Origin: an uncultured Granulosicoccaceae bacterium
Lineage (GTDB): Bacteria > Pseudomonadota > Gammaproteobacteria > Granulosicoccales > Granulosicoccaceae
Reading direction: 5' to 3'
Length of the DNA: 42,953 nucleotides
NCBI GenBank assembly: GCA_937957915.1
Contig: CALGNZ010000133.1
Location: forward strand, 1 to 42,953
The first letter of the stretch is position 1. Each line of letters opens with the position of its first letter. Positions 561 to 18,592 of the stretch are shown here, one piece after another. The notes beneath the pieces are model-generated. The model was not told the DNA's origin, ran no database searches, and saw only the letters and a program-made list of their open reading frames with translations. The translations under genes and the position numbers were made by a program.

Positions 561-1841
561 ATGAACTATCTGAACAGACGCACATTCATTCGCAGCATCT
601 CCGCTAACGCCCTTGCCTGCATAGCATTCGCGGCGGGCACCACTATGCCGGCGATGGCAGCAGATCCAATCATTGTAGGCATACCGGCAGCACAGTCTGG
701 CCCGGTTGGTGTTGCTGATCATCAGGACTGGACTAATGGTGCCACCATGGCAATTGAAGAAATCAATGCCGCCGGTGGTGTCTTAGGTCGGCCTCTGGAA
801 GCCAAGATTATCGACCTCGATATGCTGACGCCGGAAGGCAACGTCGCTGGCATTCAGGCATTGATCGAGGGCGGCGCTCACGCGATAGCATCAGCTTTCA
901 CTATCATTCCCCAGCCTGCAATGGATGCAGCAGCACCGTCCGGTATTCCGTATGTTCACGGCAATACCTCATCAGTCAACGTGGATCTGTACCAGGGCGA
1001 TAAAGAGAAATACAAAAATATCTTCCAACTGGATGTACCTGAAGCCTGGTACGGCACCGGCTTCGTGCGATTTTTATCAGACCTGAAAAAATCCGGCGCG
1101 TGGGAACCCAAGAATAACAAGGTGCATATCGTTCAGGGGCAGATCTCGTATACCCAGTTGATCAGTAAAGCAACGCAGGAAGAAATTGCTAAAACCAATG
1201 GAGAGTGGGAGGTTGCGCAAATCACGGACATTCAGTTTCCGGTTCAGGACTGGTCGCCGGTGATACGTGCGCTGCAGGAGTCTGATGCCGCTGCCATTAT
1301 GATTGATCACTGGGTGGCAGCAGAACTGGCGGCCTTTGCCCAACAGTACGCCTTTGATCCGGTACCGGGTTCACTCGTCTACCTGCAATACGGACCTTCG
1401 CAGCCGGAGTTTCTGGATCTGGCGCAGGGTGCCGGTGAGGGTATGGTTTGGGGTACCGTGTACGGTGTTTATGCTGATGAAAAGGGTAATGAGTTCCGCG
1501 CAAAGTATCGTGAGAAGTTTCCGGGGACAATGGGTATGGTGTATACCGGCGGCGGATATGATGCCATCAATATGCTGGCAGCAGCCTGGGAAAAGGTGGG
1601 TGACCCGGCTAAGTTTGATGCAGTTGGAGATGCTATTCGAAACATGGAGTATCGTGGAATCAATGGCTTCTACAAGAATGATCCGGAAACCAACTCGGGC
1701 ATCAGTTATCCGAATATGACTGATGATCCGGAAGCGGGGCAGGCGCACCTGTTCTTTCAGATTCAGGATGATAAGCACACGATTATTGCCCCCGCGGCAT
1801 TTGCTGAACAGCCGTTCCGCAAAGCACCCTGGATGAAGTAA
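561..1841 (+). CDS. Tat-exported amide/urea-type ABC substrate-binding protein
   Basis: A 426-residue periplasmic binding protein of the branched-chain amino acid/urea/short-chain amide class (Peripla_BP_6, like UrtA, FmdD and AmiC). Residues 5-11 (NRRTFIR) form a twin-arginine motif, followed by a hydrophobic stretch and a probable cleavage after AMA at residue 33. The mature part starts with the class signature (IIVGIPAAQSGPVGVADH), then a helix with EEINAAGGVLGRPLE. An AGGAGG ribosome site ends 7 bases before the ATG, so the start is secure. It is the first gene of an operon that continues into two ATPases, two permeases and DMFase subunits. That context makes a small amide the likely ligand. 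The exact substrate cannot be read from the sequence. Confidence 0.85.
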   Translation: MNYLNRRTFIRSISANALACIAFAAGTTMPAMAADPIIVGIPAAQSGPVGVADHQDWTNGATMAIEEINAAGGVLGRPLEAKIIDLDMLTPEGNVAGIQALIEGGAHAIASAFTIIPQPAMDAAAPSGIPYVHGNTSSVNVDLYQGDKEKYKNIFQLDVPEAWYGTGFVRFLSDLKKSGAWEPKNNKVHIVQGQISYTQLISKATQEEIAKTNGEWEVAQITDIQFPVQDWSPVIRALQESDAAAIMIDHWVAAELAAFAQQYAFDPVPGSLVYLQYGPSQPEFLDLAQGAGEGMVWGTVYGVYADEKGNEFRAKYREKFPGTMGMVYTGGGYDAINMLAAAWEKVGDPAKFDAVGDAIRNMEYRGINGFYKNDPETNSGISYPNMTDDPEAGQAHLFFQIQDDKHTIIAPAAFAEQPFRKAPWMK

Positions 1842-1865: not shown

Positions 1866-2576
1866 GTGGACGCACTCTTTGGTTGTGACGGCATTAGCCT
1901 CACACTGGCTGGCCGACAAATCCTCCACAAGGTCAGCATTGCGACCGACCCGGGAAATATTCTTGGGTTGGTCGGCCCGAACGGTGCGGGAAAAACCTCG
2001 CTGTTTGAAGTGTTGTGCGGGCGCTACCCCTGTGATGAAGGAAGTATTTATCTTAAAGGCAGTAACATCACCGGGTTGCCGTTTCTAAAGCGGGCGCGTA
2101 TGGGGCTCGGCCGTACCTACCAAAGTCCGGTTGTGCCCACCACGCTAACCATTGGTGAAACTTTCCTCGCGGTGCGTAAGGCACGCAAACCCTATTTGAG
2201 TCGCCACGATGCCGAGTGGGCAGCGCGGTTAGTCCATCTGCACACTGCGTGGGATACACCGGCGGCAGTACTGGGGGCATTCGATCGTCGCAAGCTGCTT
2301 CTGGCGTGTCTGCTGATGCGAGAGCCGTGCGTGCTGTTAATGGACGAGCCTGCATCCGGTCTTATAAACGCAGAAATAGATGAGCTCGATGTCATCATGC
2401 GCAGGCTGGTAGATGAATACGGCATTAGCCTGGTGTTGATTGAACACAGACTTGAGTTATTGTCAGCAGTGGCTGACACGGCGGTTGTGCTCGATCTGGG
2501 TGAGGTGATAGCAAGTGGCACACCTGACCAGGTATTCGCTGACGAGCGAGTCAAGGCGGCTTATTTTGAAGCCTGA
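1866..2576 (+). CDS. LivG/UrtD-like ABC transporter ATPase with a degenerate signature motif
   Basis: A 236-residue cytoplasmic ATPase of the branched-chain/urea importer type, starting at a GTG 24 bases after the binding-protein gene. Walker A is GPNGAGKTS near residue 38. Walker B is LLMDEPASGL near residue 160. The H-loop is LIEHR near residue 193. The segment where LSYGE or LSHGQ is expected reads LGAFDRRK (residues 136-143), so the ABC signature is not canonical. The protein is slightly shorter than usual LivG proteins (about 250). It should pair with the next ATPase, which has a normal signature, so one of the two composite sites may be weak or inactive. The last 11 bases overlap the next gene. 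Confidence 0.85.
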   Translation: MDALFGCDGISLTLAGRQILHKVSIATDPGNILGLVGPNGAGKTSLFEVLCGRYPCDEGSIYLKGSNITGLPFLKRARMGLGRTYQSPVVPTTLTIGETFLAVRKARKPYLSRHDAEWAARLVHLHTAWDTPAAVLGAFDRRKLLLACLLMREPCVLLMDEPASGLINAEIDELDVIMRRLVDEYGISLVLIEHRLELLSAVADTAVVLDLGEVIASGTPDQVFADERVKAAYFEA

Positions 2577-3264
2577 ATTGCTGCAGATCAATCAGTTGTC
2601 GGCGGGTTATGGTCCGTTGCGAGTACTGCACGAAATTGATCTAACAGTGCGCGCCGGCGAGCGCATCGGTCTGGTTGGTTTAAACGGTCATGGTAAAACC
2701 ACCATGATGCGGGCGATCACACATATGACAGGCTGGCAGCAAGGTTCAATCAGGTTTAATGGTGTTGAAATAGGCGGTAATCGTTCACAGGGGGCGGGGC
2801 GCCGAACCCCCGGACTGGTAAAAATGGGGATTGCCGTGGCACCGCAAGGCGATGCGATCTTCCCTGGTCTGTCAGTGCGCAAGCATCTTGAATGTGGGGC
2901 TCATACAAAGCTCGCATGGCGGGAGCGACGTCAGCGTATTGCTCAAATCTATAAAATATTTCCGGCGCTTGACCCCCTGCAGGATGCTCTGGTCGGGAAA
3001 CTGTCTGGCGGAGAGCGTCGCATGGTTTCGATCGGGCGCATGCTAATGGCAGATGCCAAACTGTATCTAATCGATGAACCGTCACTCGGCCTGGCACCGA
3101 AAATTTCCAAACGGGTAATGGAGGCGCTGTGGGCGCTGCCAGTCGAGGGTGCGATGATTATAGCCGAGCAGAATGTCAGTTTGCTTACTGGTCGTGCTGA
3201 TCGTATTGTCGGAATGCATGCGGGTCGTATGCGCGGCGATGTCGGTCACGTGGAGCTGGTCTGA
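2566..3264 (+). CDS. LivF/UrtE-like ABC transporter ATPase
   Basis: A 232-residue ATPase with Walker A GLNGHGKTT, signature LSGGERR, Walker B LYLIDEPSLGL and the AEQN H-loop variant typical of LivF. The frame is open further upstream, but I chose the TTG at 2566. An AAGGCGG ribosome site precedes it by 6 bases, and the protein then starts a few residues before the LivF core (ELLQINQLSAGYG). The start overlaps the end of the LivG-like gene and the stop overlaps the LivH start (TGATG), which indicates translational coupling. It is the second ATPase of the amide importer. Confidence 0.85.
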   Translation: MKPELLQINQLSAGYGPLRVLHEIDLTVRAGERIGLVGLNGHGKTTMMRAITHMTGWQQGSIRFNGVEIGGNRSQGAGRRTPGLVKMGIAVAPQGDAIFPGLSVRKHLECGAHTKLAWRERRQRIAQIYKIFPALDPLQDALVGKLSGGERRMVSIGRMLMADAKLYLIDEPSLGLAPKISKRVMEALWALPVEGAMIIAEQNVSLLTGRADRIVGMHAGRMRGDVGHVELV

Positions 3265-4190
3265 TGGATTTGGGGCTGGTGGTATATGCACTGAACCTTG
3301 CGGCTATCTACGCGTTGATGGCAATTGGCATTTCGATACTGTGGTCGAGTGTCGGCATGATCAACATGGCTCACGGTGCCACGTTTGCTATTTCCGGTTA
3401 CGCAGCCTGGCTGGTAACCGGGGCTTTAAAGCCGGTTGTTGCAGCGACCTTTGGCAAGACGGTACTGGCGTCTGGTGTCATGGCGGCTGCGCTGGTCAGT
3501 TCAGCGTTACTGGCAGGCGCGCTTTGTGGTGCCGTCATTTACGCGCTCGCGTTTTTGCCAATCCACGATAAACCAAACTACCCGGTACGCGCTTTGATCA
3601 TTACGCTCGCGCTGAATATAGGCACGGTGCAGGGCTTACTGTACTTCTTCGGGCCACGCAATCAGGGATTGCCAAAGATATTCGGCTTCGGGCGTTGGGA
3701 AATCTGGGGCGCGAAAATCCGCTATGACCAGGCAGGTACTATTGTCGGAGCGGCAGTGATCATGGGCTTGACACTTGCCTGGTTACGCTATTCGCGGCGT
3801 GGACTAGAGGTGCGTGCGATGATGCAAAATGCGGAGGGGGCTGCCTATTCCGGTATATCCAGACAAGTAACGGCACTGCCCATTCTTATGTTAACCGGTG
3901 CCCTGGCCGGCATGGCGGCAGCGCTGTTGAGTCAGACTATTTTTGTAAGTCCAACGGCAGGTGTTGTACCACTGGTAAAGGGGTTAACCATTGCGTTGCT
4001 GGGCGGCCTGGGCTCGGTGCCGGGGGCGATGATTGGTGCATTGCTGATCGGTTTTCTCGAAGCGATAGTCGGCGCAATACCGTTTCTTGGTCAACGCTAT
4101 GTGATGTCTGCAACCTTCGCGTTTATCATTTTAGTGTTGATTGTTCGTCCTCGCGGTATCGGCGGGCTGCTGGATGATACTCGCGAATGA
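3264..4190 (+). CDS. LivH/UrtB-like inner-membrane permease
   Basis: A 308-residue, very hydrophobic permease of the branched-chain amino acid/urea ABC family with about eight predicted membrane segments. The start shows the family pattern (INMAHGATFAISGYAAWL, residues 33-50). The C-terminal half has the coupling region GLEVRAMMQNAEGAAYSGI and the conserved KGLTIALLGGLGSVPGA. Its ATG overlaps the LivF stop and its TGA overlaps the LivM ATG (ATGA at 4187-4190). It forms the translocation channel together with the LivM-like protein. Confidence 0.88.
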   Translation: MDLGLVVYALNLAAIYALMAIGISILWSSVGMINMAHGATFAISGYAAWLVTGALKPVVAATFGKTVLASGVMAAALVSSALLAGALCGAVIYALAFLPIHDKPNYPVRALIITLALNIGTVQGLLYFFGPRNQGLPKIFGFGRWEIWGAKIRYDQAGTIVGAAVIMGLTLAWLRYSRRGLEVRAMMQNAEGAAYSGISRQVTALPILMLTGALAGMAAALLSQTIFVSPTAGVVPLVKGLTIALLGGLGSVPGAMIGALLIGFLEAIVGAIPFLGQRYVMSATFAFIILVLIVRPRGIGGLLDDTRE

Positions 4191-5713
4191 CTAATCGTAC
4201 TTTCTATAAGGTCGGGCGCCGACCGTGGGAGGTAAAGGGTCATCCTGATGGCCTGCAGGAACGCAAGCGTACACGTGTACCTTTTACGCGAAGACACTGG
4301 CTCAAATGGCGTGACTCGCATAACCCGAAAAATCTGCAGCGCGAACGCGTGCTGGCAGACAAAAAGCCATTGTGGTGGGCTATAGCACTGAGTCTGCTCG
4401 TTATAGTGACACCGTTCTTACCGAATTCTATGATCTCTACGGCATCGATCTTCTGCATCTATGCCGCTATCAATGTGTTGTGGACGCTTATTGTTGGCAC
4501 TGCGGGTATCTTTTCTCTGGCAACCCTTGCGGTGGTGGGTGTTGCCGGTTACAGCGCTGCTGCGGCTAATGTGTATCTGGGGGTGCCGTGGCCCTTTATG
4601 TTACTCATTGGGCCTTTAGTCGGGTTTATAGCAGGCGCTGTTCTGGCCGCACCTTCAACCCGACTCGATGGACTTTACTATGCGTTGCTCACCATGGGCG
4701 TGGCCGAAATATGCCGCGTGTTCGTTGTGCAGCTTCGGGCGCTTACTACGACTAACGGTGCAATTACACAGGTAGACAGTTTTATTCCGGAAGCCTGGTT
4801 TCTGCAGCGACCCGGTTTGCTGTTGGGTTTTGCCGGTGCTTTTTGTCTGTTGCTCGGTGCATTGCTGGTATGGCGGCTGGTCAATTCGGAGCGGCTGGGG
4901 TTATTGCTGCGGGCATCACGAGGCAGCCGCGAAGACGAATCGTTTTGCGAGGCAGTGGGTATCGACTTTCGCCGTGCCCGATTACAAGTGTTTGTTATTT
5001 CTTCTGCGGCACTGGGAGTTGTCGGTGCTTTCTATGCGATGTACTACCGTTCGATATCACCCAATATTTTTTCACTCGACCAGCTGTTGTTGCTTTTTGC
5101 AATGATGGTCATTGGTGGTCTCGGCCGTGCGGAGGGGGCGGTACTTGGCGCCGCCATTGTTACTTTAATCGATAAAGGCATGATTGAACTTGGGCCACTG
5201 CGCATTATTCTGGTGGCTGCCATCATGCTGATTGTCACTATCTTTGCGCGCGAGGGACTCACCGGTGCTCGTGATCAGTTCCGAGATTTTCGTAAACGCA
5301 AAGCGGGAGAGCGCCGCGCCCACAGAACAGAGAAAGGAGGTGAAGCCATGCCTGAAGAAGCAGTTGATGTTCGCGATAAACAAGAGCTTTACTATCGGCG
5401 TTTTAACAAGCGTTTGCGCGATCGACTAAAGCCGATGATTACGCCGGAGCTCATCGCTGAGCACAAGGCAGATCCTTTGGGCCATCACTCTGATGCGCTG
5501 GCGCGCGTACTGAATTATTTTCGCCGCGCCGAGATGGTTGATAAATATGTGATCATGCGTTTAAAAGACGGCGAGGAAGCCTATCGAATAATGGCGGTGT
5601 CCGGTGTTCGCGGTATGCCACCAAGAGTGGTTGACGATAAGGAATACCAGGCATTGAATGATGCCTATCATGCAGTGTTTTTACTGCGTGTAAACGATTT
5701 ACTGGAGAGCTGA
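4187..5713 (+). CDS. LivM-like permease fused in frame to a DMFase-type small subunit
   Basis: One uninterrupted 508-codon frame. Residues 1-60 are a basic hydrophilic extension. Residues about 62-360 are a LivM permease (about nine membrane segments; features include FSLATLAVVGVAGYSAAA and the C-terminal MVIGGLGRAEGAVLGAA). Residues 361-387 are a charged linker. Residues 388-508 match the small (alpha) subunit of N,N-dimethylformamidase: the family pattern EH.A.P.G.HS..L.RV.NYFR, then YVI, AYRI and HAVFL.R is present. LivM proteins normally end near the linker, and the known DMFase alpha subunit is a separate protein of about 130 residues. The junction holds a perfect ribosome site and ATG, so both a fusion and a free small subunit may be made. 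A missing stop through sequencing error is the main alternative. Confidence 0.85.
   Translation: MTNRTFYKVGRRPWEVKGHPDGLQERKRTRVPFTRRHWLKWRDSHNPKNLQRERVLADKKPLWWAIALSLLVIVTPFLPNSMISTASIFCIYAAINVLWTLIVGTAGIFSLATLAVVGVAGYSAAAANVYLGVPWPFMLLIGPLVGFIAGAVLAAPSTRLDGLYYALLTMGVAEICRVFVVQLRALTTTNGAITQVDSFIPEAWFLQRPGLLLGFAGAFCLLLGALLVWRLVNSERLGLLLRASRGSREDESFCEAVGIDFRRARLQVFVISSAALGVVGAFYAMYYRSISPNIFSLDQLLLLFAMMVIGGLGRAEGAVLGAAIVTLIDKGMIELGPLRIILVAAIMLIVTIFAREGLTGARDQFRDFRKRKAGERRAHRTEKGGEAMPEEAVDVRDKQELYYRRFNKRLRDRLKPMITPELIAEHKADPLGHHSDALARVLNYFRRAEMVDKYVIMRLKDGEEAYRIMAVSGVRGMPPRVVDDKEYQALNDAYHAVFLLRVNDLLES
5333..5343 (+). promoter_or_regulatory. Perfect internal Shine-Dalgarno at the LivM/DMFase-alpha junction
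   Basis: AAAGGAGGTGA contains ten consecutive bases complementary to the 3' end of 16S rRNA, and its GGAGG core ends 7 bases before ATG 5348. It is the strongest ribosome site in the window, yet it lies inside an open reading frame, where it encodes Lys-Gly-Gly-Glu. Its position exactly at the domain boundary argues for real internal initiation. Confidence 0.7.
5348..5713 (+). CDS. dmfA1: DMFase-type small (alpha) subunit, possible independent translation product
   Basis: Internal start of the fused frame. The ATG at 5348 would give a 121-residue soluble protein (MPEEAVDVRDK...) very close in size and pattern to the about 130-residue alpha subunit of Paracoccus/Alcaligenes DMFase, which packs against the catalytic beta subunit in the alpha-beta heteromer. 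The ribosome site at 5333-5343 supports the start. The stop is followed after 2 bases by the large-subunit ATG, the order known for dmfA1-dmfA2. It is listed separately because the cell may make both the fusion and this short form. Confidence 0.55.
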   Translation: MPEEAVDVRDKQELYYRRFNKRLRDRLKPMITPELIAEHKADPLGHHSDALARVLNYFRRAEMVDKYVIMRLKDGEEAYRIMAVSGVRGMPPRVVDDKEYQALNDAYHAVFLLRVNDLLES

Positions 5714-5715
5714 GA

Positions 5716-8046
5716 ATGACCGATATTCGGCTTTTCGGCTACAGTGATCCGCTGGCCGCAAAGGCAGGTGAGCCTGTCGATTTTATGATCTCGGCGGAGG
5801 GCACTGCCGAGGCCAGTATTGACATCGTGCGGATTGTGCACGGCGACTATAACCCTGATGGTCCTGGTTTCATTGAAGAGGTAATTGATACTGATTTGCC
5901 GAGCACACTGGCAGTGCGACGTCAGTATACTCAGAATGGATCGTATGCTCGTGTCACGGATGACAAGCAGCTACTGGCAAACGAGGGCTCATTTACGGTA
6001 CACGCTTTTATCTGGCCGTCCAGGCCCGGTGGCACACGTCAAACCATTATGGGCAACTGGTCCGTCAACGATTCTAAAGGCTACGCGCTTGGCATCAACC
6101 CGGAAGGTAAGCTTGAGTTCTGGGTGGGTGATGGCGAAATGGTTGACCAGGTAACGTCTGATGCTCCGCTCATTCCTAAAGTCTGGTTGTTGGTGGCGGC
6201 GAGCTTCAATCACCAAACCGGTGAAGCGCGGCTGCGCCAGATATCAGTACAGAACTCGTGGAATTCGGCTATTGGTCCGGTTGCCCCGATAGATCACAAT
6301 AGCCATGTGGTAGAGACTCTGCGCTGTGCTCCCCGTTTTGCAGATAAAGATTTTTTGATTGCCGGTGCCAATGAACGCAATCCGGAACGCGGCGATTATG
6401 TATCGATGCTATACAACGGCAAGCTCGATCGGATGGGGGTAGTTGGCAGGGCGCTGTCAGCGCAGGAGATTGCCGATCTGGCTGTGGCAGTAAACTCTGC
6501 AACGACCGCCACCCCGGTTGCAGCGCCAACGAATTCAATAGCCTATTGGGATACGACGGCCGGCTTTACAGACACCGGCATAGGTAACCGGATTATTGAT
6601 ACCGGTCCACACGGATTATATGCGGAAGGTGTCAATCGGCCCGTGCGCGCAATGACTGGCTGCAACTGGCGCGGTCGAGATGACAGCTTCAGATTAAACC
6701 CGGCGCAATATGGTGGTATTTCCTTTCATGAAGATTCACTAACAGACTGTGGCTGGACACCGCTGCTTAGCTGGACACCGTCGCCTTCACTGAAGTCGGG
6801 TGTGTATGCCTTGCGGGTTACCGCGGGTGCCAAGACGGATCGCATACCGGTGATTGTCAGGCCCCAAACACCGCGTGCGAAGATCGCTGTGCAGATGTCT
6901 ACGTTTACCTACCTTGCTTACGCGAATGAGCACTTGAGTTTTGATGCGCAAATTGCACAGGCGATTGTTGCCCATACGCCGGTCATATCGGCGGATGATA
7001 TCGAATATAACAAGCTGCAGGAGTTTGGTCTGTCGACCTATGATCATCATTCCGACGGGGCAGGGGTTTGTTACTCATCGTGGAAACGCCCCATTATAAA
7101 TATTCGACCTGGCTATCGAATGGCGGGCATGACCTTTCCGTGGGCACTGCCTGCCGACTTGTCATTGCTGTGGTGGCTGGAGCATGCCGGCTTCGACTAC
7201 GATCTGATTACTGATCACGATGTACATGCGGAAGGTGCAGCCGCATTGTCACCCTACAAAACTGTGTTGAACGTTACTCACCCGGAGTACTACTCAGAGC
7301 AAATGCTGGATGCCACGGAGCAATACCTGACAACCGGTGGTCGCATGATGTACCTCGGAGGCAATGGCTATTACTGGGTGACGTCAACGGTGGCTGATGA
7401 CCCTGCTTGTATTGAGGTGCGCAAGCTCGATGTAGGCTCACGAGCCTGGCAGGCTGAACCGGGGGAGGGCTATCTGGCCTCCACCGGAGAGCGATCAGGT
7501 TTATGGCGCTCACGTGGTCGCGCCCCACAAAAACTGGTCGGACTAGGTTTTACCGCCGAAGGTATGGATCGCTCTGAGCCGTTTGAGCGCATGCCTGACA
7601 GTTTTCACAAACGTGTGGCTTGGATCTTTGAAGGTATCGGTGACGAAGAGCTGATTGGTGATTTCGGACTGGCGCTGGGCGGGGCGGCCGGCGTCGAGCT
7701 CGATCGCTACGATCTGGCGCTGGGCACGCCTCCGCACACGCTGTTACTCGCCGCCAGTTGCGGACACACTGACAACTATCCACTGGTATCCGAGGAGATC
7801 AGCTATGCGTTCCCCGGACGCGGTGGCTCGCAGGATCCGCAGGTAAGAGGAGATATGATTTACTTCAACACTCAGGCCAACGGTGCCGTGTTCGCTGCCG
7901 GATCAATCGCCTGGAGCCAGGCACTACCCTGCAAGGGCGGCGACAACAATGTCGCAACCATTATGCGCAATTTGCTGAATGCCTTCATCAAGGATGACCC
8001 GCTACCCGGTTCGTCGTACACTGGAGAGGAAAAGGCGTGGCGCTGA
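5716..8046 (+). CDS. dmfA2: N,N-dimethylformamidase-type large (beta) catalytic subunit
   Basis: A 776-residue protein matching the DMFase beta subunit (about 760 residues), an amidohydrolase that splits N,N-dimethylformamide or related small amides into formate and amine. Residues about 60-260 form a LamG/concanavalin-like domain (SFTVHAFIWPS, KLEFWVGDG). The rest is the DMFA2 C-terminal domain. The known enzyme holds one iron through two tyrosines and one glutamate (Tyr399, Tyr440 and Glu521 in Paracoccus, from memory). Equivalent residues here are Tyr399 (TFTYLAYAN), Tyr442 (LSTYDHHSDG) and Glu524 (THPEYYS), so the centre looks intact. There is no signal peptide, so it acts in the cytoplasm. 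The start lies 2 bases after the small-subunit stop with GGAGAG upstream. The true substrate may be another amide. Confidence 0.85.
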   Translation: MTDIRLFGYSDPLAAKAGEPVDFMISAEGTAEASIDIVRIVHGDYNPDGPGFIEEVIDTDLPSTLAVRRQYTQNGSYARVTDDKQLLANEGSFTVHAFIWPSRPGGTRQTIMGNWSVNDSKGYALGINPEGKLEFWVGDGEMVDQVTSDAPLIPKVWLLVAASFNHQTGEARLRQISVQNSWNSAIGPVAPIDHNSHVVETLRCAPRFADKDFLIAGANERNPERGDYVSMLYNGKLDRMGVVGRALSAQEIADLAVAVNSATTATPVAAPTNSIAYWDTTAGFTDTGIGNRIIDTGPHGLYAEGVNRPVRAMTGCNWRGRDDSFRLNPAQYGGISFHEDSLTDCGWTPLLSWTPSPSLKSGVYALRVTAGAKTDRIPVIVRPQTPRAKIAVQMSTFTYLAYANEHLSFDAQIAQAIVAHTPVISADDIEYNKLQEFGLSTYDHHSDGAGVCYSSWKRPIINIRPGYRMAGMTFPWALPADLSLLWWLEHAGFDYDLITDHDVHAEGAAALSPYKTVLNVTHPEYYSEQMLDATEQYLTTGGRMMYLGGNGYYWVTSTVADDPACIEVRKLDVGSRAWQAEPGEGYLASTGERSGLWRSRGRAPQKLVGLGFTAEGMDRSEPFERMPDSFHKRVAWIFEGIGDEELIGDFGLALGGAAGVELDRYDLALGTPPHTLLLAASCGHTDNYPLVSEEISYAFPGRGGSQDPQVRGDMIYFNTQANGAVFAAGSIAWSQALPCKGGDNNVATIMRNLLNAFIKDDPLPGSSYTGEEKAWR

Positions 8047-8074
8047 CCATGCCCGACTAGTGTGCGGGGAACAC

Positions 8075-9049
8075 ATGCAAAACAGCTTGAGGCAATTTTC
8101 GGGGTTTGTCGGCGACATGCACGAAGTTGCCCGACACAGTGATGCTCAGGGCCTGGCGAGTTGGGCGGTGGGCAGGCTGTCGGATACCGTGGGGTTTGAT
8201 TGTGCATGGTATGGCTGGGCGCAACTCAGGGATGAAGATGTGCAAATACACGCTCAGTGTTCACACAATCTGACCGAGGCCTATTACGACAGCTGGTGCG
8301 AGATCGCCGAGGAGGATTTACTGGCAGCGGCGGTGCGCGAAAATCCGATGCAGACGGCAGTCTATGATCGGCGCGGGAAAGTGCAGACAGATGGTATGAT
8401 TTCGCTCGCAGACAGCTACGGCATTAACAAAATGGCGACAGCAATGCACGCGCGTCAGGGGCGAACTGCATCGTTCTATCTCTCCAGTTATCGAGCAGGC
8501 CCGCAAAGCCGATCATGGTCGGCAGAGGAGCTTGATTATCTGAAGTGCGCAGTTGATCAGTTATCTTCTGCGATGAAGGTTGCAAGCGCCGAACCGGTAC
8601 ATCAAAACGATAACCACGCTCGCTCAATACTGGTTAGTGAAGAGGGCATCGTCATATTGGGTTTGCAAAGCCTGCTGGCCAGATTCGGTTTTCTCTGGCC
8701 AGAGTGGCAGAGTGATCGATTGCCCGAGCACCTTGGCAATCTGATTCATATACCGGGAGAGCACGTGCTGGTTGACAGGCAGCTCATCGTTCATTGCAGC
8801 CCGGTCGGTGGACTTAACAATATGGGGTTGCTGCAACTCACCGTAAGACGGCTCACTAAATTTGATTTGCTAACACAACGTGAGCGGGAAGTAGCAGGGT
8901 TACTGGCTCAAGGCAGCAGCCACAAGGAGGCAGCTCGTATTCTGGGGGTGGCGCCCGCTACCATTCGCAATCAGACCCAATCAATCTACTCAAAGATGGG
9001 TGTTACCAGCCGAGTAGAGCTGGCGCTGGAAGTTAAAACCGGTGAGTGA
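8075..9049 (+). CDS. LuxR-family transcriptional regulator, DmfR-like by position
   Basis: A 324-residue regulator. The C-terminal part (about 262-322) is a LuxR helix-turn-helix (LTQREREVAGLLAQG, then KEAARILGVAPATIRNQ). The N-terminal 200 residues look like a GAF/autoinducer-type sensor domain (AVGRLSDTVGFDCAWYGW) but without clear ligand residues. An upstream frame start at 7979 would overlap the DMFase gene by 68 bases, so I prefer ATG 8075, 28 bases after its stop. DMF degradation in Paracoccus aminophilus is controlled by a LuxR-type activator (DmfR) encoded beside dmfA1A2, so a local activator role is likely. Confidence 0.75.
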   Translation: MQNSLRQFSGFVGDMHEVARHSDAQGLASWAVGRLSDTVGFDCAWYGWAQLRDEDVQIHAQCSHNLTEAYYDSWCEIAEEDLLAAAVRENPMQTAVYDRRGKVQTDGMISLADSYGINKMATAMHARQGRTASFYLSSYRAGPQSRSWSAEELDYLKCAVDQLSSAMKVASAEPVHQNDNHARSILVSEEGIVILGLQSLLARFGFLWPEWQSDRLPEHLGNLIHIPGEHVLVDRQLIVHCSPVGGLNNMGLLQLTVRRLTKFDLLTQREREVAGLLAQGSSHKEAARILGVAPATIRNQTQSIYSKMGVTSRVELALEVKTGE

Positions 9050-11959: not shown

Positions 11960-13348
11960 ATGAACTTTTATTCAAAATTTCAGACGATATCCTGGAAGTT
12001 CCTGGCGTTCCTGATACCTGCGGTTACCATTGCGGCTGCGGTAGTGCTGTTTATTTACGCTTACACCAAGCAAAGGTCATCTGAAGAAGCGCTGGTAAAG
12101 AAAATTGTAGAGATTGCCGAGGTGCATAGCCAGGCTGTTGCGTATCCGCTTTGGACGCTTGATTTCGATGGTCTGGAGCGCAGTGTTCGGACTATTGCAC
12201 TGCATCCTGAAATACAGTGTGTAGAGGTGATTGAATCCCATGAGCAACTCCCGTTTCAGTGGCCAGAGAAATGTATTGTTCATGATGACGAAGGGAAACA
12301 CAGTTCGCAGCTGGCTTTTGAGGATCAGCAAGTAGGGGAACTGAGCCTCTATTATACCACTGCGCCATTCACTGCTGCCTTAAGAAGGGAGATACTCAGT
12401 GGAGCGCTGTTTTTTTTCCTGCTCGTGAGCGTTGCGGGGATCGTGGCGTTTTTGGCTTTACAAACCATCGTGGGTCGCCCTGTTCAACAATTGATGTCAT
12501 CAATAAGAAAGGCTGAAAAAGAGGACTCCAGAGAGCCGATAGTCTGGACTTCTCAGGATGAACTCGGCAGCGTGATTACCGCTTATAACAATATGCTTTA
12601 TCAAGTCGATGAGAACACGAATGAGTTGATTGCAGCCAGAGAGCAGGCGGAGTCTGCGGCTTATACAAAGAGCCGATTTCTGGCCAATATGAGCCATGAG
12701 CTGCGTACTCCGCTTAATGCGGTTATTGGAATTACCGAGATGCTCCGCGAGGAGGCAGAAGACGAGGAAAAAGATACCGAGCCATTTGATCGAGTTGCCA
12801 GATCAGGCCGGCATTTGTTGAGTTTGATAGATGATATTCTTGATTTCTCAAAAATTGAAGCTGGCAAAATTGAGCTTGCCTATGAGGAAGTTAATTTGCG
12901 TGAATTGCTTGATGAGGTTGTTGCAACAGCCGATCCGCTCGCTAAAACCGGCGGTATTGCACTAAACCTTATATACGATAACGACCCGGCTCATCTCTAT
13001 ACCGATCCGTTAAGGCTTCGGCAAATCGTATTAAATTTACTGAGCAATGCATGCAAGTTTACCGAGCAGGGGTCGGTTTCTCTGACAGTCGAGAGTGAAG
13101 CATCAGAGCAGAGCAACGGTGTTCGCTTTTCTGTGGTTGATACTGGCATTGGTATCTCGAAAGAGCAAAGCGAGAATCTGTTTCAAGACTTTTCTCAGGC
13201 AGACAATTCGACAACCAGGCGTTATGGTGGAACCGGTTTGGGTTTAGCGATCAGTCAGCGGTTGTGTAATTTGCTCGGGGGGCAAATAGAGCTGAGCAGC
13301 ACAGTTGGCAAAGGGTCGAGTTTCAGTTTTGTTTTGCCGGTCCAGTAA
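11960..13348 (+). CDS. Membrane histidine kinase
   Basis: A 462-residue sensor kinase. Two membrane segments (about 9-31 and 144-168) enclose a 110-residue periplasmic sensor with no familiar domain. A HAMP linker, a HisKA domain with phospho-His246 (FLANMSHELRTPLNAV) and a HATPase domain (N box NLLSNACKF, DTGIGI, GGTGLGLAIS) follow. There is no fused receiver, although the kinase core resembles that of hybrid kinases. ATG 11960 is preferred over an upstream TTG. It follows the binding protein at 11104 and may sense that protein in the periplasm. The OmpR-type or CheY-type regulators nearby are candidate partners. Confidence 0.88.
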   Translation: MNFYSKFQTISWKFLAFLIPAVTIAAAVVLFIYAYTKQRSSEEALVKKIVEIAEVHSQAVAYPLWTLDFDGLERSVRTIALHPEIQCVEVIESHEQLPFQWPEKCIVHDDEGKHSSQLAFEDQQVGELSLYYTTAPFTAALRREILSGALFFFLLVSVAGIVAFLALQTIVGRPVQQLMSSIRKAEKEDSREPIVWTSQDELGSVITAYNNMLYQVDENTNELIAAREQAESAAYTKSRFLANMSHELRTPLNAVIGITEMLREEAEDEEKDTEPFDRVARSGRHLLSLIDDILDFSKIEAGKIELAYEEVNLRELLDEVVATADPLAKTGGIALNLIYDNDPAHLYTDPLRLRQIVLNLLSNACKFTEQGSVSLTVESEASEQSNGVRFSVVDTGIGISKEQSENLFQDFSQADNSTTRRYGGTGLGLAISQRLCNLLGGQIELSSTVGKGSSFSFVLPVQ

Positions 13349-13373
13349 GTTGAATAGATGCTCTTGTGACCAT

Positions 13374-15020
13374 TCAGAGTTCGCGTAAGTCTGGCAGTAG
13401 ATAGCCGTCTGCTTCAAGCTTGCTGCGGACCAGCTTTTTACTCATTTTTCCGGTTGTCGTCAATGGAATACTGTCGACAAAAAGCACGTCGTCAGGTAGT
13501 TGCCATTTGGCAAAACGGGTGGCGCAATGATCTATAACTGACCCGGGTTCGACAGTGGCTCCGGTTTCTGTGACGATTAATACTACCGGCCTTTCTGTCC
13601 AGCGCGGATGCGGCTGAGCCACGGCGCAGGCCTGAGCGACTCCGGGCAGGGCTACAATATGATTTTCCAGATCAACTGATGAAATCCACTCGCCTCCGCT
13701 TTTGATTAAATCTTTTGATCTATCTGTGATGATCAGATATTCATCTTCATCAATCGCTGCAACGTCGCCTGTTACCAGCCAGCCGTCTTTAAATTTGTCG
13801 GGTTGCGGGTTATTAAAATACTCGCTGCAGATCCACGGCCCGCGTATCAACACCTCACCAACAGCATTGCCATCGTGCGGCAGGTCCAGACCGTCGTCAT
13901 CAACTATTTTTATATCAATGCCTGGCATAATCTGGCCGGCCTTGGCCATGTTTTGAAACTGTTCGTCATCGCTGAGGGAGAGGTGTGAGCGCTTTGAAAC
14001 CCGACGGGCTACGGTGCCGAGTGGACTCGTCTCGGTCATGCCCCAGCCTTGAATCATCTCGACGTTAAGGTTGTCCCAGTACCACTTGATCAATGAGATA
14101 GGTGCTGCCGAACCGCCAACCGTTAGCCGGTCGAGAGCGCTGAAGTCATAGTTCTGTGGGTTTTTTTCAATCAACACTTTCATGCCTTGCCATATCGTGG
14201 GGACCCCGGCAGATATAGTCACCTTTTCCTCTGACATTAACTGAGCAATTCGGGCGGGGTCCATAAAACGGTGTGGCATGACTTGTTTCATACCGAGCGT
14301 GAGCGCAACCCAGGGCAATCCCCAGCCCTGTGCATGAAACATTGGCACTATGCCGCACAGAGTGTCAGTTCCGGATAGACCCATACAGTCGGTTGCCATC
14401 ACTGACATGGTGTGCAGATACTGCGCCCGGTGTTCGTACTCAACACCTTTCGGGTCGCCGGTAGTCCCGCTGGTGTAACACAGGCCCAACGGCGATGTCT
14501 CCGGTAAGTCGGGCCATTCGCAGTGGGCAGGTTGCGTGTCGATAAAGGTTTCGTAGCAGACAGCATTGGGCAAATCTGTTTGCCAGTTTTCAAACCCTTC
14601 TTCGGCGCTGATTACTACGCGTTCTACCGTGGGTATGTTGTCTTTGACTGTCTCCAGTGCGGGCAGCAGATCGGCATCGACAATGATTAACTTGTCTGTC
14701 GCATGATTGATGATGTATTCGAGATCGGTTTGGCCAAGTCGAATATTCAGTGTGTGCAGAACGACGCCGAGTCCGGCGCAGGCCCAGTAGATTTCGAGGT
14801 GGGTCGCACTGTTCCACATAAATGTCGCGATACGATCGCCGGGCTTGATACCCTGTGCGATAAGCGCGTGAGCCAGTTGATGCGCACGGGCGCGCGTTTG
14901 CCGATAGGTTTGTCGCCTTGTACCGCTGGTGGTTGCTGTAACAATTTCTTCTTCAGGGCAGACTACTGCGCCACGCTCAATCAGTCGGTGCATTAGCAAC
15001 GGCACAGATTGCATACCCAT
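13374..15020 (-). CDS. AMP-forming acyl-CoA ligase
   Basis: A 548-residue adenylate-forming enzyme that activates a carboxylic acid with ATP and joins it to CoA. Motifs in order: CYTSGTTGDPKG (about 180-191), GWGMTETSP (about 325), DGWLVTGDV, DRSKDLIKSGGEWIS, and the catalytic lysine in TTTGKMSKK (about 523-529). Length and motif spelling fit the medium-/long-chain fatty acid and methylmercaptopropionate ligase group (AlkK, DmdB). The acid cannot be chosen by reading. It stands alone, convergent with the kinase gene 25 bases away, with GGGAA before the ATG. Confidence 0.88.
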   Translation of the reverse strand: MGMQSVPLLMHRLIERGAVVCPEEEIVTATTSGTRRQTYRQTRARAHQLAHALIAQGIKPGDRIATFMWNSATHLEIYWACAGLGVVLHTLNIRLGQTDLEYIINHATDKLIIVDADLLPALETVKDNIPTVERVVISAEEGFENWQTDLPNAVCYETFIDTQPAHCEWPDLPETSPLGLCYTSGTTGDPKGVEYEHRAQYLHTMSVMATDCMGLSGTDTLCGIVPMFHAQGWGLPWVALTLGMKQVMPHRFMDPARIAQLMSEEKVTISAGVPTIWQGMKVLIEKNPQNYDFSALDRLTVGGSAAPISLIKWYWDNLNVEMIQGWGMTETSPLGTVARRVSKRSHLSLSDDEQFQNMAKAGQIMPGIDIKIVDDDGLDLPHDGNAVGEVLIRGPWICSEYFNNPQPDKFKDGWLVTGDVAAIDEDEYLIITDRSKDLIKSGGEWISSVDLENHIVALPGVAQACAVAQPHPRWTERPVVLIVTETGATVEPGSVIDHCATRFAKWQLPDDVLFVDSIPLTTTGKMSKKLVRSKLEADGYLLPDLREL

Positions 15021-15382
15021 TAGAATTTCCCCGTGTGTTCTGGCGTGTTAGCTGGAAAGGTTACAGAGCCGCTCCGGGCAGTGTTCGTGCAGGCCATGGT
15101 GTTTATCAGTTTGATTCGATATTGCCACAGCGTTTCAATCGTCGCACAGGTAATTTATTGCTGTTAAGCAGAGCAGCTGATCTACTGTAGTGTCGTCGGT
15201 GAACAGACCAATAAACTGCCTCTGAACGCGATTATACTAGTTGATCAGGCAATAGATTTATCTGAGGCTTGCCCGCTATGCGGGTCGGTTATCCTGGGTG
15301 CGCGAGAACGGGGTAGCACTTGAACCAACGACGGGGGCGGCATATTATGTCATGACGCATTCGTGATAAAGGGAATGAAGCT
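15021..15382. other. Intergenic region between divergent genes
   Basis: This 362-base stretch lies between the acyl-CoA ligase (minus) and the lipoprotein (plus). It must hold both promoters, but I see no convincing promoter pair, operator or RNA gene. Confidence 0.3.
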
Positions 15383-16240
15383 GTGAATACACTCCGTTTA
15401 CTGTTTGCACCGGCACTGCTTGCACCGGCACTGCTTGCACCGGCTCTGGTTGCACCGGCACTGCTTGCACTGTCACTGGTGGCACTTTCGGCGTGTAGTG
15501 GTACCTCTGCTGAGCCATCGACCGACACATCGAATCCGTTGTCCCCTCCCGTCACGGTACAGGCAGATCAGGCGTCTAACCCGCTAACTGCCGACGATTC
15601 CGCAGCAGGTGATGTGAGCGGCCACTGGTACTGTGCCGCATCCGAGGTGGTAGGGAATGCAGACAATTGGAGCAAAGCGTTTACACTTGAGTTTCTTGAC
15701 GATAGAACGCTTTCCAGTTCTGGTCAGGGCGTGTCAGGTCAGGGCATTTCAGGGCAGAGCGTTTCAGGCCAGAGCATGGTTAATCGTAGCGGGACGTGGT
15801 GGTACACACCTGCCGGCGCGATGGTTCAATGGGCGAATGGAGATACCACCGAGTATCGGGTTACTGATGGTAGCCTCGGCGGGCTTTCTGATGGCAGTAC
15901 GCATTGTTTGCGTGAGTTGCCATCGGCGGGCAGTTCCGTTGATGCCCCGGCTCTTGCCGCCATACCGACTTATGATTGTGGTAATGGAACGATAGTCGGG
16001 TTTGCAGCTAATGGGCGGTTATTTCAAAACGGTGTTGTGAGCGGGCAATGGCGAATGTATCTTGGAAATGGTATTGGAATTCCCACGCCGGATGCGCAGA
16101 TCGGCTATACGTATATTGAATTCAACGATACCCGCTTTACGGTTATTGACGATACGCTATTGCAGGAGTTCGGTGAGTGGTCCTGTTTCTCTATCAAGGC
16201 CGATGGGCCATTGTTGACATTGCTTGCACCGCTGCCGTAA
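15383..16240 (+). CDS. Putative lipoprotein with two pentapeptide repeat tracts
   Basis: A 285-residue protein starting at GTG (GGGAATGAAG upstream; the nearby ATG hits a stop at once). Residues 1-38 are a lipoprotein signal with lipobox LSAC. Its hydrophobic core is built from five-residue units (LAPAL-like) encoded by a 15-bp tandem array. The mature region has a Ser/Thr/Pro-rich linker, a segment GHWYC...GTWWYTPAGAMVQW, and a second tract (GQGVS, GQGIS, GQSVS, GQSM) from another 15-bp array. The C-terminal part has paired cysteines and beta-strand-like sequence. I do not recognise the family. It is likely outer-membrane anchored. Confidence 0.7.
   Translation: MNTLRLLFAPALLAPALLAPALVAPALLALSLVALSACSGTSAEPSTDTSNPLSPPVTVQADQASNPLTADDSAAGDVSGHWYCAASEVVGNADNWSKAFTLEFLDDRTLSSSGQGVSGQGISGQSVSGQSMVNRSGTWWYTPAGAMVQWANGDTTEYRVTDGSLGGLSDGSTHCLRELPSAGSSVDAPALAAIPTYDCGNGTIVGFAANGRLFQNGVVSGQWRMYLGNGIGIPTPDAQIGYTYIEFNDTRFTVIDDTLLQEFGEWSCFSIKADGPLLTLLAPLP
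15407..15481 (+). repeat. 15-bp tandem array inside the signal peptide
   Basis: Five head-to-tail units of GCACCGGCACTGCTT. Units 1, 2 and 4 are identical; units 3 and 5 are diverged. All are in frame, so gain or loss of a unit would lengthen or shorten the hydrophobic core by five residues without breaking the protein. Confidence 0.85.
15722..15781 (+). repeat. Second in-frame 15-bp tandem array in the same gene
   Basis: Four units related to GGTCAGGGCGTGTCA encode the GQxxS pentapeptides. The first two are most similar and the last has degenerated. The sequence is unrelated to the signal-peptide array. Confidence 0.75.
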
Positions 16241-16313
16241 AACATAGCGAGCGCTCATAATCGTTTAAGAGCGATTACATAGAGCGACTAGTTAGTGCCA
16301 TGACGCACAGTGC

Positions 16314-17615
16314 TTACGTAAGGTTTGCACTGACCACAGCGATACACCGCGCTGTTTTACAGTTTGGATTGGCCGGTGAACCGGGTCTGCCAAACACATT
16401 GCCGTCGACTTCAAAATACACGTTGCTCCAGCAGATGCACGATTCTGCCGAGTTAGGTGAGAACCACAGCTCGTTGCCAAGGCCAATGCCGTCAAGCACA
16501 TATCTCTGCCGACCCTCAACTAAAAAAGGGGGTTGACCAACCTGATCCCAAATCCACCTGGGATAGTTGGCCTGGCCTCGTGCACTGACTGCTGCCTGGC
16601 CATTGGTTCCGAGGACTCGATCCTTGAATTCCTGGCTACCGACAAAATCGATGAAGCGATCATAGTTAATGCAAAGGTCAGTGACGTTGCATAGGCCGGT
16701 GTCCGTTCCAATCGTTGCAGACCAGGGAACGAACGATACGTAGAAAAATGAGTTGCTGCACTTTCCGCTTGATGGCAATCCGGTTGCTACATCGCGACTG
16801 GCAGAGCCACCATCTCCTCCAGCGGTTTCCCATTTTACGAATATGCCCCACTGACGCCCGTCGATAGTGATAGGCGCTGTATTGTTGAGTAAGGCGCCAC
16901 CGGTTGCCTGTGTCGCGGTAAATCCCTCAGGTAAACAAAGCTTGAAATTGAGGTTCCAGGTTTCCGTCGCGTTTTCGTTGATTTTGTTCAGATCACCCCA
17001 GGAGGCCTGATAGCCATCTGGCCAAAGATCCGGTTTGTCAATTCTATGCAGGTAGGAATCGATAAAGACATTCTCGATATTTTGCGCGTCACCTGAGCAA
17101 TTCTTGTTAACGTCAAAACAGATTTTAAGCGTACTTAGTGTGTCGACTCTCGCAGGCAGTCTGATGCTGGCGTTGGGTATTCGCATGTCGTAGACAGCGG
17201 CGTTACCGCACCTGCCTGATTCGGCGAGTTTGGTGGTGGTGTTGCAGATTGTGCCCCAGGTTTCGCGTCTGCCTCCGAGCGAACCCAGCAAGATAAATGG
17301 ATAGGCATGGACGTGAGATCTCTCGCCGGTTGGTGGGTCAATGTTACGGCGCCCGTCGCTGTGGGTGCCATGGTCTACCTGTGGAGGAATCGTATAGCAA
17401 AACGTGTACTGGCCGGTGTCATCAGCAGACCCGGCAATGGGCGACGCGTAACAGTCACCACGAACTTTTGTACCGGCCGGTACGGTCCATTCACCACGCG
17501 CCAGTGGATTTCTGGATAAATCAATATTCCAGAAGTTTGTCGCGTAAAACAGATCTCCCACCTGGGCCGTATCAAAGCTGTTGTTGCCATCGGTATTGAT
17601 TTTTATATTCGGCAT
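16314..17615 (-). CDS. Unrecognised cysteine-rich protein, second gene of a pair
   Basis: A 433-residue protein of unknown function. ATG 17615 is 5 bases after the stop of the preceding gene with GAGAG upstream; a longer frame start at 17648 would overlap that gene. There is no signal peptide or membrane segment. It has about 18 cysteines spread along its length (GDCYASP, GTICN, GRCGN, KICFDVNKNCSG, GLCNVTDLC, SCICW), many Trp and Gly, and beta-rich patterns. WGIFVKWE and YVLDGIGLGNELWF faintly recall beta-jelly-roll glycosidases, but no catalytic pair is visible, so I assign no function. It is transcribed together with the gene at 17621-18529. Confidence 0.7.
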   Translation of the reverse strand: MPNIKINTDGNNSFDTAQVGDLFYATNFWNIDLSRNPLARGEWTVPAGTKVRGDCYASPIAGSADDTGQYTFCYTIPPQVDHGTHSDGRRNIDPPTGERSHVHAYPFILLGSLGGRRETWGTICNTTTKLAESGRCGNAAVYDMRIPNASIRLPARVDTLSTLKICFDVNKNCSGDAQNIENVFIDSYLHRIDKPDLWPDGYQASWGDLNKINENATETWNLNFKLCLPEGFTATQATGGALLNNTAPITIDGRQWGIFVKWETAGGDGGSASRDVATGLPSSGKCSNSFFYVSFVPWSATIGTDTGLCNVTDLCINYDRFIDFVGSQEFKDRVLGTNGQAAVSARGQANYPRWIWDQVGQPPFLVEGRQRYVLDGIGLGNELWFSPNSAESCICWSNVYFEVDGNVFGRPGSPANPNCKTARCIAVVSANLT

Positions 17616-17620
17616 GTGGT

Positions 17621-18529
17621 TTAGCTCTCTGACGGAGATTTGCAGCATTCAACTTCGATGGTGAAGTTACCTGTGTCGGATGCGATTACCTGCGTTACTG
17701 GGCCGTTGGCGGGGTTAAACGTTAATTGTGGATCAGGGGAGCGCCAGGTAATTTCACTTTCATCACAGCATTCGCAACCGGCAACACTCAGGGTTTTCGC
17801 TACACCCTGTACAAGCGCGACCTGGCCATCCTGACATTCGACGATTACCGGGTCAGGGCACTCGGCGGCGGCTATGTTGATGGTCGCCTTGCAGTCGGTT
17901 GCCTGAGTAACGTTGTTGCAAAATACGTCAAACGTCATTACCAATGGCGCGTTGGCAGCAGTCATCTGCGCTGCGGGGATTTTGGCAACGCAGGCCGGGT
18001 CACTGATGATAAAGGTGATAGCAGGTGTGAATCGGATGTTTGTGACGATGCATGGCGTTGCGGTACTTTCGGGTATCGACAGATCCGCTTTACTAATACA
18101 CAGTGTCTGTCCTGCTGATGCCTGCAACTGTGGATTGGTGCAGGTGTAGATCTGACTGTCATCATCCGGTGTGTTGCTACAGGCAGAATTGGCAGGCACG
18201 GCAAACGATAACTCGCAGGCATTTGTCGTGCTGTTGTCGGTTGCCTGAATGACAAATACATCAGCGTTGTGCGAACCGACCGTATAGGGAACATAGAAAC
18301 ACTGAAAGCCGGGTACATCCGTGACGGCGAAGTCCTGCGCATAGGGAGGCTGGTTATTGCTCGATTGAAAGCCTGTTGAGCCGTGTGCTGATCCGGTGGC
18401 GTTGCCGCCATTGATGTCAAAACCCTGAAAATAGGGCCCCTGGGTTGCCAGGTCTTTGAGGCAGATTAGCACGCGTCCATTGCATGCTTCGCTGGCGTCG
18501 ACAAATGATGCGCTACAGTCTATTGGCAC
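17621..18529 (-). CDS. Unrecognised cysteine-rich protein with a C-terminal Ig-like segment
   Basis: A 302-residue protein starting at GTG 18529 (AAGGAA upstream). It has no signal peptide and no membrane segment. It is rich in Cys, Thr, Ala and Asn: about 20 cysteines, including the cluster AGCECCDESE and a final ECCKS. The C-terminal 90 residues (VALVQGVAKTLSVAGCECC, then TWRSPDPQLTF and TGNFTIEVECC) read like an Ig/PKD-like beta sandwich. It is the first gene of a two-gene operon and is followed after 5 bases by another Cys-rich unknown. Shared style suggests one extracellular or surface structure, but the export route is not evident. Confidence 0.65.
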   Translation of the reverse strand: MPIDCSASFVDASEACNGRVLICLKDLATQGPYFQGFDINGGNATGSAHGSTGFQSSNNQPPYAQDFAVTDVPGFQCFYVPYTVGSHNADVFVIQATDNSTTNACELSFAVPANSACSNTPDDDSQIYTCTNPQLQASAGQTLCISKADLSIPESTATPCIVTNIRFTPAITFIISDPACVAKIPAAQMTAANAPLVMTFDVFCNNVTQATDCKATINIAAAECPDPVIVECQDGQVALVQGVAKTLSVAGCECCDESEITWRSPDPQLTFNPANGPVTQVIASDTGNFTIEVECCKSPSES

Positions 18530-18592
18530 TGCATACGTTCCTTGTTCTTGTTGTTTTCAGGTTAGTTATATCACTGAAATTAGGAGACATTT

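Follow-up and report, generated by a model that had tools for sequence, protein, structure and literature searches.

In a 42,953-nucleotide (nt) stretch of DNA from an uncultured Granulosicoccaceae bacterium (GenBank assembly GCA_937957915.1, contig CALGNZ010000133.1; hereafter the window), we analyzed a forward-strand operon that encodes, in order, the binding protein, two ATPases and a LivH-like permease of an ATP-binding cassette (ABC) importer, the product of a fusion gene (4187..5713), and the large, catalytic subunit of an enzyme related to dimethylformamidase (DMFase). The fusion gene joins a LivM-type permease to a DMFase small subunit in a single protein of 508 amino acids (aa), and at the junction of its two parts it carries a Shine-Dalgarno sequence and an in-frame ATG from which the small subunit is probably also made as a free protein.

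The fusion gene and its operon

The frame at 4187–5713 is open across 508 codons. Its permease part (residues 1–356, 4187..5254, the boundary being approximate) carries the Pfam domain BPD_transp_2 at residues 83–350 (E 2.1e-28) and is encoded in one operon with the other importer components named above, as is characteristic of the LivM type; its scores fall short of the thresholds that NCBIfam sets for LivM and UrtC, so that no substrate class can be assigned. LivM-type permeases end shortly after their last membrane helix, unlike this protein, which continues for about 155 residues beyond its final hydrophobic segment (335–353). Residues 357–387 (5255..5347) constitute a linker that includes the motif EKGGE (382–386) and is basic, with 10 K/R as against 6 D/E, a composition that is consistent with a cytoplasmic location of the LivM C-terminus.

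The remaining 121 residues (388–508, 5348..5713) make up the small-subunit part. A Pfam scan of the fusion detects the permease domain alone; the C-terminal part was identified by its match, across residues 386–505, to the DMFase small subunit 6lvb_B (chain residues 6–127 of 132; E 2.8e-10). Furthermore, an AlphaFold2 model of residues 388–508 (mean predicted local distance difference test score, pLDDT, 86.5) has four helices and two longer strands, and a Foldseek search with this model retrieved the DMFase small-subunit chains 6lvv_B and 6lvb_B (template modelling scores, TM, of 0.82 and 0.79; E about 5e-7), the sole PDB matches with E < 0.001. The fold of DmfA1 in parDMFase has four helices and two strands. 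These results agree with a sequence-only reading of this DNA, which had claimed a single 508-codon frame combining a LivM permease with a complete DMFase small subunit, joined at residue 387/388.

The catalytic-subunit gene, which the same reading had placed next, indeed follows at 5716..8046 and matches 6lvb_A with an E value of 5.4e-185. In the alignment, read by eye, its residues Y402, Y442, E524 and H522 correspond to Y399, Y440, E521 and H519 of 6lvb, which PMC7686228 describes as the 2-Tyr-1-Glu iron ligands (Y399, Y440, E521) and the catalytic histidine (H519) of parDMFase. As the PDB matches of the large subunit include N-acetyl-(R)-beta-phenylalanine acylase (8huy) besides DMFase, dimethylformamide cannot be assumed to be the substrate, which is probably a small N-substituted amide. 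One fused locus (see below) adjoins formaldehyde-detoxification genes on a Rhizobium plasmid; a methylated C1 amide would suit this neighbourhood, which is not proof.

The operon opens with the periplasmic substrate-binding protein (561..1841; Peripla_BP_6, Pfam E 9e-35), followed by a LivG-like ATPase (1866..2576; ABC_tran E 2e-21, BCA_ABC_TP_C), a LivF-like ATPase (2515..3264; ABC_tran E 2.5e-26), the true start of which is possibly downstream of 2515, and the LivH-like permease (3264..4190; BPD_transp_2 E 4.3e-29). The N-terminus of the binding protein (561–660) reads MNYLNRRTFIRS, which we take to resemble a twin-arginine (Tat) export signal and not an ordinary Sec signal. After the operon lies a gene for a LuxR-family regulator (7979..9049, the longest frame, with the true start probably further in; GerE E 6.6e-14), a relative of which is found downstream of the large subunit in nine of the 27 fused loci described below (the window, L010, L012, L014, L016, L089, L094, L110 and L111), some of the stretches ending before this point. 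No homolog was detected in 56 relatives of the window genome (13 from the same genus, 22 from the same family and 21 from the same class), so that the operon may have been acquired horizontally; the window's own genome (89% complete) has a single small-subunit match at E 0.001.

Occurrence and conservation of the fusion

A large-subunit scan yielded 18 loci, and a tblastn search with the small subunit against plasmids yielded 37 records. In 24 of these 37 plasmid rows, the sequence under the match is labelled 'branched-chain amino acid ABC transporter permease' (19 of the 24 being A. tumefaciens plasmids with identical match scores and, for the most part, the same length), and, as Pfam likewise detects only the permease domain, the fusion is easily overlooked. 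Genome surveys with an alignment of seven small subunits gave matches in 35 of 385 genomes from the class of G057 and in 7 of 274 from the window's class. Recognizable fused copies were found in 2 of the 385 and 1 of the 274 (the window itself), in 2 of 292 genomes from the order of G057 and 5 of 250 from the order of G058, and in 7 of 12, 2 of 150 and 3 of 149 genomes from the families of G1208, G1009 and G885, respectively; the survey sets overlap, and fused status was counted among matches with a fetched locus.

For comparison, we used 27 fused loci, comprising the window and 26 relatives, which were chosen for a permease match adjoining the small subunit and which leave out further fused-looking plasmid records (e.g., H23, H45, H46 and other A. 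tumefaciens rows). The join is in frame in all 27, a result that, given this choice, bears on the frame of the join and not on how often small subunits are fused, and the frame is open throughout in 26. In the remaining locus, L010, from a metagenome-assembled genome, codon 12 of the small-subunit part (about 5818–5820) is an in-frame TAA. It cuts short the fusion and any product of internal initiation alike, and points to an error of assembly or to a defective gene; L010 was omitted from alignments A1 and A2 for this reason, yet is counted among the 24 start-bearing loci discussed below. The fused loci are labelled alpha-, beta- and gammaproteobacterial. Five fused relatives lie on completely sequenced plasmids, and on complete plasmids four are annotated as one coding sequence (CDS). 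LivM proteins with the same C-terminal extension, which the sequence-only reading had proposed to seek in other genomes, do exist.

The large-subunit gene follows the fusion in every one of the 27 loci, and, wherever the stretch is long enough, gene order is uniform except for an extra open reading frame (ORF; L094, L110), a second large-subunit gene (L031) or a second small-subunit gene (L087, L029, L112). In L094 (6897–8063) and at the same place in L110, about 1.3 kb separates the fusion from the large subunit; in L094 this interval contains an ORF of roughly 380 codons whose product begins like a signal peptide, lacks any Pfam match and is perhaps an outer-membrane channel. In L031 (8437–13180), a plasmid of Aminobacter sp. 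MDW-2, a strain listed in the methomyl-degradation literature, one fusion gene is followed by two large-subunit genes.

Fused small subunits are 51–92% identical to that of the window. The outcome that the earlier reading had named as fatal to it, homologous operons in which the two genes are always separate, did not occur: every examined small subunit with at least 51% identity is fused, and those examined with at most 48% identity are encoded by separate genes; the second copies that three fused loci carry are the exception. Among 18 stretches with other DMFase-like large subunits, a small subunit is present in 16; no LivH- or LivM-like match was found nearby in these 18 stretches, some of which are short, though an ATPase match was found in L023, L024 and L034. 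A 483-aa open frame in L095 (G352) was rejected as a fusion, its upstream part having no permease match and looking like a chance open frame, and was counted as separate. Small-subunit matches in frames of 853–863 aa (L066, L078 and G401:C187) are possibly small-large fusions and possibly long GC-rich open frames. On a Halalkalicoccus jeotgali plasmid (L028, 7785–8327), an archaeal 'inner-membrane translocator' of about 180 residues has a small-subunit match and no permease-length part; its label was perhaps copied from fused relatives.

Across 14 chosen pairs among the 27 loci, some of them saturated at synonymous sites, the ratio of nonsynonymous to synonymous differences (pN/pS) was 0.13 both for linker residues 357–380 and for the small subunit, 0.06 for residues 381–387 and 0.15 for the permease body, synonymous sites having in general diverged (pS about 0.4). 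Purifying selection acts on the linker as it does on the permease, and, since such low values are not expected of an untranslated stretch, the linker is translated as protein. We consider it near certain that the permease–small-subunit fusion and its conservation are real.

Codon 388 as a candidate internal start

Codon 388 is an ATG (5348..5350) preceded by the in-frame Shine-Dalgarno sequence AAAGGAGGTGA (5333..5343), with 7 nt from AGGAGG to the ATG. Its calculated pairing with the anti-Shine-Dalgarno sequence (−12.9 kcal/mol) is the strongest of 418 sites in the window, which comprise 24 starts of ATG-started long ORFs and 394 internal in-frame ATG or GTG codons, the two GTG-started ATPase ORFs lying outside the set. 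By the same measure, the fusion's own start scores −3.1, the large subunit −6.4 and the binding protein −10.3. A second strong internal Shine-Dalgarno sequence in the window (−12.2) precedes an in-frame GTG at 33540, within the ORF 33198–34250.

The motif EKGGE, whose codons form the Shine-Dalgarno sequence, is invariant in the 27 fused loci, and the two-codon slot that follows it holds a start codon in 24 of them: ATG at the first codon in nine, GTG at the first codon in five and ATG one codon earlier in ten. Pairing of −11 kcal/mol or better was calculated for 19 of the 24 junctions and for none of 767 other internal ATG or GTG codons of these genes. As a control for EKGGE itself, the codons were synonymously recoded under each locus's own codon usage; p 0.05 was reached singly by 10 of 24 junctions as compared to 10 of the 767 controls. 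Combined over 11 clades, the codon p values give 5e-5 if each clade is represented by its weakest locus, 3e-5 if by its median and 4e-7 if by its strongest; this scheme replaces an earlier one-per-clade test (11 of the 24 loci, p 8e-7), the representatives of which had been picked after the single p values. GC-rich loci use rare AAA and GGA codons at the junction (background 0 and 0 in L092). Furthermore, junctions are less structured than other internal start codons (median unpaired 0.56 at 24 sites versus 0.34 at 517 controls), and the junction fold in the window is weaker than 194 of 200 shuffles. It is likely, if not proven, that codon choice at the junction has been selected for a start beyond the needs of the protein. 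Because the small-subunit part has its own conserved Shine-Dalgarno sequence and start, not all of the small subunit is probably tethered, and we regard a second product, a free small subunit made by internal initiation, as a likely one. While the sequence-only reading was right about a fusion that proves to be real, conserved and under purifying selection, it overlooked this start.

The three loci that have neither ATG nor GTG in the slot (L087, L029 and L112) carry CTG there, with pairing of −7.0 to −7.4 kcal/mol (p 0.58–0.93), and it is these three that have a second, separate small-subunit gene between the fusion and the large subunit; none was found within the stretch examined in the other 24 fused loci. 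L112, which was examined after the pattern had been noted, conformed to it. A midpoint-rooted tree of 20 loci without L112 places L087 and L029 together, with full support, among start-bearing fusions. The three second copies group as a single clade (98/99) in the small-subunit tree, next to the three fusions (77/99), a placement that is uncertain owing to long-branch warnings. The pattern reads as a duplication of the small-subunit part followed by loss of the internal start.

Interpretation and comparison with known systems

We favor, as the more probable account, a gene with two products, an importer-anchored small subunit and a free one. Translation from 4187 would yield the LivM permease with a DMFase small subunit on its cytoplasmic end, while initiation at the ATG at 5348, behind its strong Shine-Dalgarno sequence, would yield the identical small subunit as a free protein, and both forms could bind the large catalytic subunit encoded by the next gene. 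In the window, the two products would have sizes of about 57 and 14 kDa. According to PMC7686228, the small subunit of parDMFase is needed for activity and helps to form the active-site entrance. Anchored copies would bring the iron-dependent amide hydrolase to the cytoplasmic mouth of the importer, where substrate could be cleaved on entry; such docking for local hydrolysis follows from the parts and appears somewhat likelier than its absence. Free copies would complete a soluble pool, or would take the place of the second small subunit in an alpha2beta2 enzyme, so that two importers are not cross-linked. Since each importer would contain one such permease, judging from the LivH–LivM pair, and each alpha2beta2 enzyme two small subunits, an extra untethered small subunit would be needed, a need that could be served by the internal start or by a second gene. 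Whether the whole forms a covalent uptake-hydrolysis machine, in which the internal start sets the ratio of docked to free enzyme and which in one lineage was later split, through duplication, into separate genes for an anchored and a free subunit, we judge to be evenly balanced.

Several observations weigh against this account. EKGGE alone yields about −8 kcal/mol, so that part of the junction pairing is due to the protein motif, and, as EKGGE is kept in the three start-less loci too, its conservation is partly at the protein level. At five of the 24 junctions (L030, L032, L033, L094 and L110) the Shine-Dalgarno sequence is only moderate (−7.1 to −7.7 kcal/mol) and shows no codon bias (p 0.38–0.68); GGG-using Rhodobacter-like loci and L089 have p values of 0.19–0.29 each, and L010 has 0.28. 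When the loci are combined over five coarse clades, the codon p is 0.02 with the median and 0.24 with the weakest locus, which is not overwhelming. The canonical 16S tail pattern was found in one of seven genomes, and not in G000, so the anti-Shine-Dalgarno sequence is an assumed one. The three start-less loci, being one clade, represent one evolutionary event and not three, and L029 has an in-frame ATG nine codons before the slot and a GTG seven codons after it; in L112, a TTG lies 13 codons downstream of the slot. For the entire fusion, an AlphaFold2 model with 6 rows was poor (pLDDT 49.1); it gave no geometry and was not used. Finally, a tether at the N-terminus of the small subunit may strain the known geometry because this N-terminus packs into the enzyme in parDMFase (PMC7686228).

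Some of these observations would favor a fusion that gives rise to a single protein, in which the methionine and the Shine-Dalgarno-like stretch are relics of a once separate small-subunit gene or by-products of a protein-level EKGGE motif. The invariance of this motif, the similarity of the residues M, V and L at the slot, the moderate junctions and the weak coarse-clade statistics all suit this explanation, which we nevertheless regard as unlikely. A relic would be expected to erode at synonymous sites, given their divergence elsewhere in these genes, whereas GC-rich loci have retained the rare codons AAA and GGA and the codon bias persists over 11 clades; moreover, the start codon shifts by one codon between clades and is still kept in 24 of 27 loci, and the sole clade without it has a separate small-subunit gene.

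Less probable still is that the small-subunit domain acts as a sensor that binds the large subunit or the substrate and thereby regulates transport. C-terminal regulatory domains are known in some ABC importers, but those known to us sit on ATPase subunits, and the domain described here keeps the small-subunit fold and is followed by the catalytic-subunit gene in all fused loci. A post-translational cut that would release an ordinary permease and a free small subunit is suggested by a linker that is long, basic and probably exposed; it is improbable to a slightly greater degree, as purifying selection extends over the linker as far as its end, and an internal start would be redundant if the protein were cleaved. 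Although the TAA in L010 shows that single assemblies can be unreliable here, an artefact of sequencing or assembly, by frameshift or by chance loss of a stop in one strain, is ruled out for practical purposes by the in-frame join in 26 relatives, including the four annotated as one CDS on complete plasmids.

Physical coupling of import and catabolism has often been proposed but can seldom be seen in a gene. In these loci, labelled from three proteobacterial classes, the coupling appears to be built into the gene itself, and the idea is directly testable because the clade with separate genes provides a natural control. If the two-product account is true, the permease of an ABC importer would itself be a subunit of a catabolic enzyme, and the recurrent internal start with its clear Shine-Dalgarno sequence would be a clean case of one gene encoding two proteins in bacteria outside CRISPR systems. 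The sequence-only reading knew of no described fusion of this kind, and this holds for the open literature searched, in whose titles and abstracts we found no description of a permease–DMFase fusion (subscription literature was not covered) and no paper combining 'dimethylformamidase' with 'ABC transporter'.

Of the known systems, the DmfA1–DmfA2 enzyme of Paracoccus (6lvb, PMC7686228; plasmid pAMI2, PMC4543880) shares with the window the subunit families, the small-large gene order, the iron ligands and the catalytic histidine. The classical dmf operon of pAMI2 has a separate dmfA1 (PMC4543880), whereas in the window the small subunit forms the end of a LivM permease and is probably made as a free protein as well. 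The record of the pAMI2 stretch 12000–18563 lists no ABC importer, and kinship of the window's LuxR gene with the pAMI2 regulator is unsupported, their comparison giving no significant match (E 0.27).

The window's five importer genes are those of the Liv, urea and short-chain-amide ABC importers (LivHMGF), likewise in a single operon. In Methylophilus, the fmd operon pairs an amide importer with an amidase gene; to our knowledge, in none of the Liv, urea or fmd importers is a hydrolase subunit covalently part of the permease.

The likeness to Cas11 concerns the second product. Cas11 is made by internal in-frame initiation inside cas8 or cas10 (PMC11899642, citing McBride 2020), so that one gene gives two proteins and a C-terminal domain is also made alone. 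The fusion loci have the corresponding arrangement, a conserved Shine-Dalgarno sequence and start before a self-standing C-terminal domain (a start in 24 of 27 loci, with strong pairing in 19 of these 24). As far as that source describes Cas11, both of its products act in one CRISPR complex, whereas the two products proposed here, the second of them predicted from sequence, would be a subunit of a membrane importer and a subunit of an enzyme.

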